Shown piece after piece: positions 34,413 through 41,166 of a stretch of 64,000 bases of DNA. The stretch spans positions 1 to 64,000 of the forward strand of contig DVOJ01000013.1 of NCBI GenBank assembly GCA_018713725.1. Direction: 5' to 3'. The notes below the pieces were generated by a model that was not told the origin of the DNA, did not search any database, and saw nothing but the letters and a program-made list of their open reading frames with translations. This stretch comes from Candidatus Caccopulliclostridium gallistercoris (GTDB lineage Bacteria > Bacillota > Clostridia > Christensenellales > UBA1242). The translations under genes were made by a program, and so were the position numbers. Numbering within the stretch: the first letter of the stretch is position 1; each line of letters begins with the position of its first letter.

Positions 34413-35501
34413 ATGATAGTTCTATATATAATTTTAGCAATAGTAATTTTGCTAGTAATGGTGCTAATTCACGAGTTTGGGCACTATGTTGTAGGTAGGG
34501 TGCTTGGCTTTAAAATAACGGAATTTTCCGTAGGTTTTGGTAAGGCGATAGCGCAGAAAACGAACAAACGTGGTGAAAAAATTTCACTTAGAATTTTCCC
34601 GCTTGGCGGTTACTGTGCTTTCTTTGGCGAAGATACGGAAGACGATAAGGAAGACACAAACCCAGATTCTTTCGTAAATCAAAAGCCGTGGAAGAGAATT
34701 TTGGTGTACATTGCAGGACCACTATTTAATATAATTTCAGCTGTACTATTTTCTTTCATACTATTAGTATCACTTGGCTATGGTAATATTTATAGAGTAA
34801 CTTACGTAAACCCTAACTTTTCTCAAACTGCTTCCGTTATAGAAGAAGGCGACGTAATCTATAAAATAAATGGTAAAAAAGTTGATTACGTTTGGGAATC
34901 CACCATAGAAAATATTTTACCAAATATGCAAGATGGTGACAGTGTTACGCTAGAATATCGCGACGCAGAAACGGGCGAAATAGTAACGGAAACGCTTGTA
35001 GTTTCAACAAATCAGCAGGTTGACCCAGAAACAGGTGAAGGGGTTATTGAAAACGGCGTTCCAATTTATCAAACAGGGCTAGGGCTTAGTTTACAACTTT
35101 CTAGTGAAAGGCTTTCATTTATAGATGCGCTTGCTCAGTGTGTTCCGTTCACAATTGGGCTTGTGTGGATGGTTTTAAAATCTCTATGGCTACTTATAAC
35201 CTTCCAGTTGCCAATAAGTGCAATAGGCGGGCCTATAACAACAGTTACAACGGTGGCAAACACCTTAGGGCAAAGTTTTGCAAGTATCTTGCTATTTATG
35301 CCATTAATTGCAGCAAACTTAGGTGTGTTTAACCTGTTGCCGTTCCCGGCACTAGATGGCGCACACGTAGTGTTTACTAGCATAGAATGGATTAGAAAGA
35401 AGCCAATAAAGCGAAGCATAGAAACTTGGATTCATTTTATAGGCTTGATTGTTCTGTTTGCATTTGTTATAATAATAGATATAATTCATTTCTTTGTTTA
35501 A
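34413..35501 (+). CDS. rseP: RIP site-2 metalloprotease
   Basis: 362 residues. Zinc site HEFGH in the first helix (about residues 20-24), FGYG-type RIFPLGGYCAFFGED loop, one PDZ domain (about 120-215, GDVIYKINGKKVDYVWE) and the second active-site motif NLLPFPALDG near residue 310. It cleaves membrane-embedded substrates such as anti-sigma factors or signal-peptide remnants. AAAGGAG precedes the ATG. The next gene starts 3 bp after its stop. Confidence 0.95.
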   Translation: MIVLYIILAIVILLVMVLIHEFGHYVVGRVLGFKITEFSVGFGKAIAQKTNKRGEKISLRIFPLGGYCAFFGEDTEDDKEDTNPDSFVNQKPWKRILVYIAGPLFNIISAVLFSFILLVSLGYGNIYRVTYVNPNFSQTASVIEEGDVIYKINGKKVDYVWESTIENILPNMQDGDSVTLEYRDAETGEIVTETLVVSTNQQVDPETGEGVIENGVPIYQTGLGLSLQLSSERLSFIDALAQCVPFTIGLVWMVLKSLWLLITFQLPISAIGGPITTVTTVANTLGQSFASILLFMPLIAANLGVFNLLPFPALDGAHVVFTSIEWIRKKPIKRSIETWIHFIGLIVLFAFVIIIDIIHFFV

Positions 35502-35504
35502 ACT

Positions 35505-37052
35505 ATGGAAAAATTAATTGCAGAACTAAATAAAAATTTTAATAATAATTTCACATTTTTAAAAATTTATGATGTGGAATATACTCTTTCTGCCAAAACG
35601 TGTACGTTTACTTTAATGTATCCGGAAACTGTTGGCGAAATTTCTAATGAAGATAGAAAAAAAATATATGAATTTATTAAAAACTATTTAAATTTAAACG
35701 GAAAATTATTTTTAAAATTTAGAAAATCCTATTTAGATAAAGAATTTATTTTAAAGGAAATTCTTCAATTTGTTAAAAATAATTATTTTTCCGTTTTTTC
35801 CTATGTAAAAAATGAAAACTTTTTAATTGAGAACAATAATTGTTATATAAACATAACTATTAAACTTGCAAAAAACATTTTTGAAAATATAGACGACGCG
35901 AAATTCGAAAAAGAATTAACGGACTATTTAAATTCACGTTTTTGTGCGGAATTTTCAGTTAATATTTTAAAAACAGAAGAAGTTGAATTCACAGGCGTCA
36001 TTGAAAAACGTTTAGAAAAGGTGCTTGAAGATAATAGAGTAGAAAAAACTCCGCGCTATAAAGTTTTAGAGTCAGTTATGCTTGTAGGCAAAGAGTTTTA
36101 TTTTGAACCGGAATACATAGGGAATATTAAAGGGGAAAAGACTTCTGTAATCTTAGCCGGAAGAGTGCAAAATATAAATAAAAAGACCTTTACCAAAAAA
36201 GGTAAAACTCCAATTGAAAAAGCATACTACACTTTCATATTAAACGAAGGCAAGGAAAGTATTAACGTTGTATATTTCTGCCCAAAGTCTAATGAAGACA
36301 AAATGGACAAGCTTATAAACGGCGACACAATTGTGCTTATGGGTGACATTAAAAATGGTTACAGCGGTTCACTTACAATGTATGCAAGAAGTATAGCCTT
36401 GTGCGAAATGCCTGCTAACATTTACGAAAAGGAAGCGGATAAGCCTGTTAAAGTAATGCAACATGGGTATAAGGTAGTAAGTCCTGAAAAAGTTCTCTCA
36501 TTAGAACAAGGCAACCTTTTTGCTATTGGACCAGTTTATAATAAGCATATCTACGACAATAACTTTGTTGTATTCGACGTAGAAACTACTGGGCTAGATG
36601 CCGATACATGTGAAATTATAGAGATAGGCGCAGCAAAAATTGAAAATGGTAAAATAACGGAAAAATTCCAAACTTTAATTAAGCCAAGCAAACCTATAAG
36701 CGACTTAATTACAAACTTAACCGGCATAGATAACAGTATGATTGAAGACGCGCCGAACATAGAAGATGTAATAAAAGATTTCCATTATTTTTGTGAAAAT
36801 ACAATTTTAGTGGGCTACAACGTGAGCTTTGATATAAAGTTCGTTCAAAACGCGGGTAGACCAGTGGATTGTCCGTTCAATAATGAAATAGAAGACGCCA
36901 TGGCGCTTGCAAGAGAAAAGTTAAGGCTTGGTAACTATAAATTAAAGACTGTTGTAAATGAGCTTGATATTAAGCTCGACAACGCGCACCGTGCTTACAA
37001 CGACGCATTGGCCACAGCAAAAGCATATTTAAAATTAAATGAAATTGGTTAA
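35505..37052 (+). CDS. PolC-derived OB-fold/3'-5' exonuclease protein without polymerase domain
   Basis: 515 residues colinear with the N-terminal part of Gram-positive PolC: an N-terminal region (1-190), an OB-fold region (about 195-310, TSVILAGRVQNI to GSLTMYARSIAL) and a DnaQ-type exonuclease (about 350-515) with D358/E360 (FDVETTGLD), a middle NVSFD Asp and H495/D500 (HRAYND). The PHP and polymerase domains, some 900 residues, are absent, and the frame ends cleanly with an ordinary terminator. It occupies the usual polC position after rseP. Predicted as a stand-alone proofreading subunit. No ribosome site; probably coupled to rseP. Confidence 0.82.
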   Translation: MEKLIAELNKNFNNNFTFLKIYDVEYTLSAKTCTFTLMYPETVGEISNEDRKKIYEFIKNYLNLNGKLFLKFRKSYLDKEFILKEILQFVKNNYFSVFSYVKNENFLIENNNCYINITIKLAKNIFENIDDAKFEKELTDYLNSRFCAEFSVNILKTEEVEFTGVIEKRLEKVLEDNRVEKTPRYKVLESVMLVGKEFYFEPEYIGNIKGEKTSVILAGRVQNINKKTFTKKGKTPIEKAYYTFILNEGKESINVVYFCPKSNEDKMDKLINGDTIVLMGDIKNGYSGSLTMYARSIALCEMPANIYEKEADKPVKVMQHGYKVVSPEKVLSLEQGNLFAIGPVYNKHIYDNNFVVFDVETTGLDADTCEIIEIGAAKIENGKITEKFQTLIKPSKPISDLITNLTGIDNSMIEDAPNIEDVIKDFHYFCENTILVGYNVSFDIKFVQNAGRPVDCPFNNEIEDAMALAREKLRLGNYKLKTVVNELDIKLDNAHRAYNDALATAKAYLKLNEIG

Positions 37053-37059
37053 AATGTAT

Positions 37060-37104
37060 AAAAATCTTTTCTTTTTATCAAAATAAAAGGGGAAGATTTT
37101 TTTT
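37060..37104 (+). terminator. Terminator hairpin embedding the next ribosome site
   Basis: 19-bp stem with G.U pairs (37060-37078 with 37083-37101), loop CAAA, then T residues. The downstream arm contains AAAGGGGAAG, the ribosome site of the next gene, and the T run leads into its TTG start at 37103. Confidence 0.8.
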
Positions 37105-38925: not shown

Positions 38926-41166
38926 ATGAAGAAAAGAGCAAAAATAATTGCAATAGTAAGTACTTTATGTTTATGCCTATCCTTGTTTGTTGTAGGCGTG
39001 CTTTCTGTATCTACAACATCACTAAGCGTAACAAGCTCACTTAGCTTTAAGTCTAACGGTGCATTTGTTATGGTAGATGGGGAGCTTAGGCAAGGTGCAA
39101 CAAAGGAAAGTGCAACCTTGCAAAGCGGAGCGCCAGCAACTTATACATATAAAGGTTATTCCTATAACTGTATAGGTGGAGCAGGAGCAGATAAAGATAA
39201 GCCAAACGGCACAGCTTCATTAGAAAACTTCGTAGATGCAAGTGGTGCAACAAATGCTACATGGGCAGTAGGGGAAATAACTTTTTCTGAAACATTACCT
39301 GTAGCAGTGTATCATTTTACATTTACAAATTATTCCGAAATGATGGTTGTTGTATCAGTAACTTCTAACATCCAAGAATTAAACACAGACCTAGCAGGAA
39401 AGGTTAGCATAACAGAAAGCTTTGAAAGTGGTAGCACCATAGATGCTTACGATGGCACAACCGCCAAAACAACAGTTTACACAATAACAGTGGAAATAAC
39501 AGACTATACAACAAGTTTTGAGAATAAACAATTAGATTTAACAATTCAGTTTGACACAGCAGTATTTAATAGAGAATACTTTACATATAACACAGATGGC
39601 ACAGAAATAACAGGCTTATCTGATAAATATTTTGAAGATAATTTAAGTGTATTAATAGTTCCAGGCAAGACGGAAAGTGGTCAAAATTTAACAATTGCGA
39701 GGGGTAGTTCTTCAAGCCCAACATTTAATGGCTTAGTATCACCAACAGTAATATTGCAGGAAGGGTTAACAAGTATAGGTATTTATGCCTTTTCTGGTTG
39801 CAGTAGTTTAAGTAGCATAAGTTTGCCAGAAAGTGTAAAAAGTATAGGTAATCAAGCCTTTAATGGTTGCAGTAGTTTAAGTAGCATAAATATACCAGAA
39901 GGAGTAACAAGTATAGGTTCTTCTGCCTTTAGGGATTGCAGTAGTTTAAGTAGCATAAGCTTGCCAGAAAGTTTAACAAGTATAGGTATTTATGCCTTTA
40001 GGGATTGCAGTAGTTTAAGTAGCATAAACATACCTGATGGTGTAACAAGTATAGGTGAGCATACCTTTTCTGGTTGCAGTAGTTTAAGTAGCATAAGCTT
40101 GCCAGAAAGTGTAACAAGTATAGGTGGTTCTGCATTTTATGGTTGCAGTAGATTAAGTAGCATAAATATACCAGAAGGAGTAACAAGTATAGATGATTGG
40201 ACCTTTGATGGTTGCAGTAGTTTAAGTAGCATAACAATACCAGAAAGTGTAACAAGTATAGGTATGGATACCTTTTATAATTGCAGTAGTTTAAGTAGCA
40301 TAAATATACCAGAAGGAGTAACAAGTATAGGTTCTGGTGCCTTTTCTTGTTGCTATGCACTAGTAGAAATATATAACTATTCACAGTTAACTTTAGATGG
40401 TTCTTCTAGTGTTGGATATTTAGGGCAATATGCATTATATGTATACAATGCTAATGATGGAACAGAGCCAGAACATACTAAAATATCAGTAGATGGCAAT
40501 GTGCAATATTATACAGATGGCACAGATATAATAGCAATAGGCACATTCGGCAACAGAAATGCAATAAATGAAATAACCTTTAAAGATGGTACAACTAAGA
40601 TTAACACTCGTGCCTTTAGTAGTCTCTATGCTTTAACTAGCGTGACTTTGCCTAGCAGTGTAACAGAGATAGGAGATTCTGCTTTTAGGGATTGTAGTAG
40701 TTTAAATAGCATAAGCTTGCCAAGCAGTGTAACAAGTATAGGTTCTTCTACCTTTTCTAGTTGCAGTAGTTTAAGTAGCGTGACTTTTGGTGAAAATAGC
40801 CAGTTAGAAAGTATAGGTTCTTATGCTTTTTCTGATTGCGAGAGTTTAAGTAGCATAAATATTCCAAGTACTGTAACAAGTATAGGTTCTTATGCCTTTG
40901 ATGGTTGCAGAAGTTTAAGTAGCATAGATATGACAAATGTAGTAGACTGGAATAATTTAACCTTAGGGTCTTATTCATTTAAAACAAATGCTTCAACAAA
41001 TGCTCCAACTGTTATAACAATTTCAAGTAATGCAAATATTCAAACAGTTACATCAAAACTTACTTCAAGTGTTATTGGCAGTTCAATGACAAATAAAATT
41101 AAATTTACTAATGGCTCTACAACCTATGTTTGGAATGGTTCTGCTTGGGATTTACAAACCGCTTAA
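38926..41166 (+). CDS. Large BspA-like LRR surface protein (module member B)
   Basis: 746 residues. Basic N-terminus and signal-type helix (about 5-28), then the roughly 200-residue module shared with the protein at 7162 (SSLSFKSNGAF, GYSYNCIGG, ATWAVGEITF, FTNYSEMMVV). A linker leads into LRR_5 repeats (about 280-490), then a repeat-poor spacer (500-550) and four more repeats. The first block is nearly identical at DNA level with a 69-bp period. No LPxTG or membrane anchor at the C-terminus. Probably exported adhesin or binding protein; partner unknown. Confidence 0.88.
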   Translation: MKKRAKIIAIVSTLCLCLSLFVVGVLSVSTTSLSVTSSLSFKSNGAFVMVDGELRQGATKESATLQSGAPATYTYKGYSYNCIGGAGADKDKPNGTASLENFVDASGATNATWAVGEITFSETLPVAVYHFTFTNYSEMMVVVSVTSNIQELNTDLAGKVSITESFESGSTIDAYDGTTAKTTVYTITVEITDYTTSFENKQLDLTIQFDTAVFNREYFTYNTDGTEITGLSDKYFEDNLSVLIVPGKTESGQNLTIARGSSSSPTFNGLVSPTVILQEGLTSIGIYAFSGCSSLSSISLPESVKSIGNQAFNGCSSLSSINIPEGVTSIGSSAFRDCSSLSSISLPESLTSIGIYAFRDCSSLSSINIPDGVTSIGEHTFSGCSSLSSISLPESVTSIGGSAFYGCSRLSSINIPEGVTSIDDWTFDGCSSLSSITIPESVTSIGMDTFYNCSSLSSINIPEGVTSIGSGAFSCCYALVEIYNYSQLTLDGSSSVGYLGQYALYVYNANDGTEPEHTKISVDGNVQYYTDGTDIIAIGTFGNRNAINEITFKDGTTKINTRAFSSLYALTSVTLPSSVTEIGDSAFRDCSSLNSISLPSSVTSIGSSTFSSCSSLSSVTFGENSQLESIGSYAFSDCESLSSINIPSTVTSIGSYAFDGCRSLSSIDMTNVVDWNNLTLGSYSFKTNASTNAPTVITISSNANIQTVTSKLTSSVIGSSMTNKIKFTNGSTTYVWNGSAWDLQTA
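39769..40389 (+). repeat. Tandem 69-bp coding repeats
   Basis: Nine consecutive units, each 69 bp and encoding 23 residues (pattern TSIGxxAFxxCSSLSSIxxPEGV). Stretches such as GCAGTAGTTTAAGTAGCATA are unchanged from unit to unit. The period is a multiple of three, so gain or loss of units keeps the frame. Related units recur near 40670-40935. Confidence 0.9.

Follow-up and report, generated by a model that had tools for sequence, protein, structure and literature searches.

The gene that follows rseP in the window, which is the whole stretch of 64,000 nucleotides analysed here, is polC itself shortened in place and no duplicate of it. Its product, called the solo protein below, has kept the N-terminal domain (NTD), the OB fold and the DEDDh exonuclease of PolC. 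We favour, with moderate confidence, the reading that it now acts in trans as a PolC-derived, clamp-tethered proofreading or accessory subunit of DnaE1. Origin, architecture, conservation, a short linker motif and the genome context of the solo protein were determined by computation, and the features of the locus are collected in Table 1.

Table 1 Features of the solo gene and its surroundings, in positions of the window
Feature	Position	Strand	Remarks
rseP	34413..35501	+	conserved upstream neighbour of the solo gene and of full polC in relatives
Solo PolC-derived gene (NTD-OB-linker-Exo)	35505..37052	+	515 aa; stop at 37050-37052
N-terminal domain, residues 1-160	35505..35984	+	two alpha-beta (type II KH-like) subdomains; homologue of the PolC NTD
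OB-fold domain, residues 183-301	36051..36407	+	PF01336, 2.9e-5; hhalign probability 99.1 against the PolC OB fold
QGNLF, residues 335-339	36507..36521	+	candidate sliding-clamp-binding motif in the flexible linker 5' of the exonuclease
DEDDh 3'-5' exonuclease domain, residues 353-513	36561..37043	+	PF00929, 2p1j; invariant catalytic residues
AT-rich 19-bp hairpin, then Ts	37060..37101	+	terminator-like; -15.8 kcal/mol, z -4.4

Domain architecture and homology to PolC

A preliminary description of this DNA had recognised the N-terminal region, OB fold and exonuclease of PolC and had noted that PHP and polymerase domains are absent, which Pfam searches, profile comparison and structure modelling all bear out. 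The Pfam match to the exonuclease covers residues 355-508 (PF00929, 5e-34) and the weak match to the OB fold residues 215-297, and the same search gave no PHP or Pol3 match; the PHP domain interrupted by the exonuclease, the Pol3 core (PF07733) and the HhH region that characterise PolC are missing. The best full-family NCBIfam model is PolC NF001688 (1.2e-52), whose score of 178.8 of 873 bits lies far under the family cut-off because most of PolC is missing. The DnaQ/epsilon exonuclease subfamily model TIGR00573 is passed with 108.1 bits against a cut-off of 71.5, and the closest solved relative is the Thermotoga PolC exonuclease 2p1j (3.6e-32). D443 joins the previously named D358, E360, H495 and D500 to complete the DEDDh set, and all five residues are invariant in 27 relatives. 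The protein stops 2 residues past the exonuclease domain, and neither the sequence nor the AlphaFold model has an epsilon-like DnaE-binding tail after it.

The first 300 residues, on which the preliminary description had staked its reading, are homologous to PolC. Pfam alone was insufficient for this part, with PF11490 (PolC N-terminus II) reached by only 1 of 27 members, and the OB fold PF01336 was matched in 26 of 27 relatives. Profile-profile comparison of NTD and OB together with their PolC counterparts gave a probability of 99.9 (E 3.5e-32) over 302 columns; with hhalign, the NTD alone matched the PolC NTD at 96.7 (E 4e-10), as against about 1% or less in controls that paired the NTD with unrelated regions of DnaE. 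In the AlphaFold model (pLDDT 86) the NTD folds into two alpha-beta subdomains, an OB barrel follows, and a flexible linker leads to the exonuclease; the top Foldseek match of the model is full-length PolC (9qpc). The NTD, modelled with a pLDDT of 90, has NusA2 as its best Foldseek match, which is weak (E 8e-4). The solo protein thus shares with PolC the two KH-like NTD subdomains, the N-terminal OB fold and a DEDDh exonuclease of the PolC kind.

The stop codon is genuine: its position is conserved in congeners (513-515 aa), and an assembly error is therefore excluded. At the clean end noted earlier, the gene is followed by a terminator-like hairpin and a run of Ts; a strict terminator scan called no terminator after the gene. 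The 3' arm of the hairpin includes GGGGAAG, a possible Shine-Dalgarno sequence for the next ORF (37103).

Genomic position, distribution and origin

The expectation that the gene occupies the place where polC normally follows rseP was confirmed in relatives, in which the solo gene comes after frr-uppS-cdsA-rseP, the very place of full polC in other families of the order; several families have one gene of about 350 aa between rseP and full polC. The short gene recurs in six sampled congeners, in one of them broken up by contig ends, and all 40 genomes searched gave a match of solo or PolC type. Counted by hand, an order-wide draw of 151 genomes contained 64 solos, of which two are fragments at the edge of a contig, and 14 further proteins whose exonuclease is degenerate; together they come from 15 families. 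Elsewhere in this draw, most families have PolC-length frames of ~1430 aa, and no surveyed family holds both a solo and a full PolC. The best matches among GTDB species genomes are uncultured Clostridia, including Candidatus Coproplasma.

A duplicated domain kept beside a full PolC, the second option of the preliminary description, is contradicted by these genomes, as neither the window's genome nor any other sampled solo-bearing genome contains a full PolC. The idea of a PolC in two pieces, with the polymerase half at another locus, was likewise rejected, since genomes of family f1 have one PF07733 match each, located in DnaE.

A single branch of the exonuclease tree divides 63 solos from 44 PolCs (99/100), independently of the drawn midpoint root; one PolC in this tree (L190) sits on a very long branch, and the bootstrap of the tree had not converged. 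In the DnaE tree, too, genomes with a solo and genomes with PolC fall on either side of a single branch (100). The polymerase half of PolC was therefore lost once, which is the simplest history because PolC is widespread in Firmicutes and beyond (PMC3919608). The exonuclease is under purifying selection (dN 0.05-0.13, dS 1.0 or more), and in most families no other domain is as well conserved; in congener pairs the NTD has accepted more changes than the exonuclease.

Elsewhere in the window, positions 38926-41166 encode a secreted-type protein with leucine-rich (BspA-like) repeats, whose signal region is near-identical to that of another secreted-type protein at L257:12233-14314 (MKKR(A/S)KIIA.V.TLCLCLSLFVVGVL). 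The L257 copy adjoins a gene of the 369-aa type, which in congeners neighbours the recR-dnaX or the pfkA-dnaE region.

A candidate sliding-clamp motif

In the linker between OB fold and exonuclease, at the position where the PHP domain begins in PolC, 58 of 63 solos carry a Qxx pattern followed by two hydrophobic residues (QGNLF in the window protein); the other five are active solos without it. None of 44 PolCs has the pattern in the corresponding segment, and it arises in 9.9% of shuffled sequences. As in known clamp ligands, the conserved Qxx[L/M/I]F-type peptide lies in an exposed linker, a part of lower confidence in the AlphaFold model. The solo lineage thus appears, by its sequences, to have gained a clamp-binding motif. 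Only two of 15 homologues that have lost catalytic residues show the pattern, one of them off the aligned place; the association of motif loss with catalytic loss (Fisher p 3.5e-9) is computed from rows that are not independent, the losses falling in families f17, f20 and f32.

Replicase complement of solo-bearing genomes

The replicase of solo genomes is a single DnaE1 with an intact PHP site. A C-family polymerase was found in 39 of 40 genomes, and relatives in family f1 encode PF07733 once per genome, in a DnaE of about 1200 aa and without PolC. All eight scored PHP metal ligands are present in the DnaE of solo genomes (HHDHEH.DH; the ninth, C/H, was not scored), and most of these DnaEs keep an internal QxSLF-type clamp motif. 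An inactive DnaE PHP site as the reason for keeping the exonuclease was therefore rejected. Since the ligands are intact, DnaE may proofread by itself, and the solo protein would be a second proofreader and not the only one. The DnaE of one genome (G008, L098) has a low-complexity N-terminal extension of about 250 residues ahead of its PHP domain.

This complement also bears on the idea that the solo protein serves DNA repair, or acts as a general 3'-5' exonuclease, and uses the clamp outside the replicase. Clamp motifs are present in many repair proteins, the DnaE already has its own PHP site, and the solo is the only PF00929 exonuclease in the window's genome and in nearly all family f1 genomes, so that it could cover several tasks in these small genomes. 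However, it is most closely related to the proofreading domains of PolC replicases and still has the OB fold and NTD of PolC attached, and we regard such a role as improbable.

The exception among the 40 genomes is that of the window, whose assembly has no dnaE or polC match (no PF07733). It also lacks whiA, dnaX and recR, which neighbour dnaE or dnaX in congeners, and of an 8-kb dnaE region from a relative (G006) only the edge gene was matched, which, contrary to what a gap would suggest, does not lie at a contig end. An assembly gap is the likely cause because these genes are missing along with dnaE, and their joint loss disfavours a true lack of a replicative polymerase. The missing polymerase genes could also be taken as a sign that the solo gene is a decaying remnant or an assembly or annotation artefact of polC, but their absence coincides with that of whiA, dnaX and recR, as a gap predicts. 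Moreover, congeners share length and stop, 64 intact copies occur in 15 families, the active site is invariant with dN much below dS, and a single old origin and a gained motif do not fit decay; we consider this explanation hardly credible.

A separate observation concerns dnaX, which in ten genomes (G001-G006, G008, G016, G020 and G022; L211-L214, L216, L217, L219, L226, L228 and L229) ends after the gamma part at 365-374 aa. The gamma stop sits a few bases past a conserved stretch of roughly nine A (e.g. GTAAAAAAAAACGATTGA), and a tau C-terminal-like domain lies in the -1 frame, open from before this stop; in clear cases it matches the C-terminus of full-length DnaX of relatives with an hhalign probability of 99.1. 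Tau in these genomes probably needs frameshifting or slippage, as reported at 7-10 A for other bacteria (PMC3711429).

Lineages without a working exonuclease

Three genomes of family f1 have the protein reduced to NTD-OB only, with 214 aa (G009, L086), 338 aa (G012, L084) and 312 aa (G019, L085), and PF00929 exonucleases are altogether missing from the latter two genomes. In the DnaE tree, the three genomes fall into one clade. The proteins of f17, f20 and part of f32 (L088, L259-L272; 15 proteins) still have the exonuclease region, but all or most of its DEDDh positions carry other residues; such pseudo-exonucleases seem to have evolved on several occasions. As NTD-OB persists where the exonuclease is lost or dead, proofreading is not the whole function, and the repeated loss of the exonuclease alone indicates that NTD-OB has a function of its own. 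For proofreading in such lineages, DnaE with its PHP site may be enough.

These proteins are also the main ground for supposing that the core function is structural. NTD-OB would then serve the replisome as an accessory subunit, touching clamp loader or primase, binding ssDNA or handing off primers, and the exonuclease would be optional. The PolC NTD resembles the tau C-terminal domain (probability 90, E 1.6e-6, within the same clostridial order), a likeness reported in a 2011 paper that is cited in PMC12926913. The solo NTD itself, however, shows no clear similarity to tau in direct comparison (probabilities 25 and 0.9), so that the link runs only through PolC. The exonuclease is better conserved than the NTD, as described above, and the clamp motif travels with the exonuclease, which makes a purely structural role rather unlikely in our view. 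More tentatively than the DnaE1-subunit reading, we put forward as possible that PolC was turned into a non-polymerising replisome subunit in which NTD-OB is indispensable, bridging clamp, DnaE1 and clamp loader, and in which the clamp-tethered exonuclease served DnaE1 and was later discarded several times independently.

Discussion

A PolC remnant, a gained clamp-like motif and DnaE1 as the only replicase together fit a trans-acting proofreading or accessory subunit. From the sequences we infer clamp binding, contact with DnaE1 and proofreading. The ancestor shared by about 15 families within one clostridial order lost PHP, polymerase and HhH from its PolC; NTD-OB-Exo persisted as a separate protein of about 515 aa, and DnaE1 became the only replicative polymerase. 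The QxxLF peptide of the solo protein may fill one pocket of the dimeric sliding clamp and the internal QFSLF-type motif of DnaE1 the other; the OB fold and the KH-like NTD may touch single-stranded DNA and/or DnaE1 or the clamp loader, and the DEDDh exonuclease would clear mispaired 3' ends. Proofreading in trans has a precedent in B. subtilis, where the PolC exonuclease corrects DnaE errors in a stable ternary DNA-DnaE-PolC complex (PMC5627055). In E. coli epsilon, the QTSMAF peptide adjoining the catalytic domain binds the second clamp pocket, and its mutation abolishes clamp binding and stimulation (PMC3642679).

The first option of the preliminary description, a separate proofreading subunit for a DnaE-type replicase, gains support from genome content, the single origin, purifying selection on the exonuclease and the acquired clamp-like motif. 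That description did not cover how widely the clade carries the gene, the clamp motif, the finding that DnaE1 has an intact PHP site, or the NTD-OB proteins whose exonuclease is dead or missing.

Replicase surveys distinguish three bacterial sets, namely DnaE1 only, PolC with DnaE1, and PolC with DnaE3, and assign DnaE1 only to some Clostridia; the solo protein is not described in the excerpted text of these surveys (PMC3919608, PMC12926913). It is a separate candidate DEDDh proofreader that, by its sequence, derives from PolC. It represents an intermediate in which the PolC polymerase is gone and proofreading and N-terminal modules are retained, and thereby a natural experiment on the roles of the little-understood NTD and OB fold of PolC. 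It would also show that separate proofreaders can arise by a second route, in convergence with epsilon, and it makes the role of PolC in Clostridia with PolC and DnaE1 testable. Since the polymerase domain of PolC is missing from this large group of gut Clostridia, inhibitors directed at the PolC polymerase site should be without effect on them.

Among known systems, PolC (B. subtilis, Enterococcus faecium 9QPC, Clostridia) has a homologous NTD, OB fold and DEDDh exonuclease in the same order as the solo protein, and it shares the genomic place after rseP. The solo protein differs in lacking the PHP domain, which houses the exonuclease of PolC, as well as palm, thumb, fingers and HhH, in having a clamp-like motif between OB fold and exonuclease, and in its length of about 515 instead of about 1430 aa. 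Exonuclease-less PolC, known in Clostridia and Negativicutes (PMC3919608), also shows PolC domains dropped in Clostridia that have DnaE1; it keeps the polymerase and loses the exonuclease, the reverse of the solo protein. Mycobacterial and putative Treponema DnaQ (PMC12926913) are likewise additional DEDDh proofreader candidates beside an apparently active PHP site, but unlike the solo protein they are not derived from PolC. DnaQ/epsilon of E. coli Pol III resembles the solo protein as a separate DEDDh exonuclease beside DnaE1 with a clamp-binding pentapeptide adjoining the catalytic domain, a clamp-binding-like one in the solo as judged from its residues. The motif precedes the exonuclease in the solo protein and directly follows it in epsilon, and the solo protein lacks the C-terminal DnaE-(PHP-)binding tail, has an extra NTD and OB fold and descends from PolC. 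The best reading is that the solo protein would work like epsilon but differ from it in descent.
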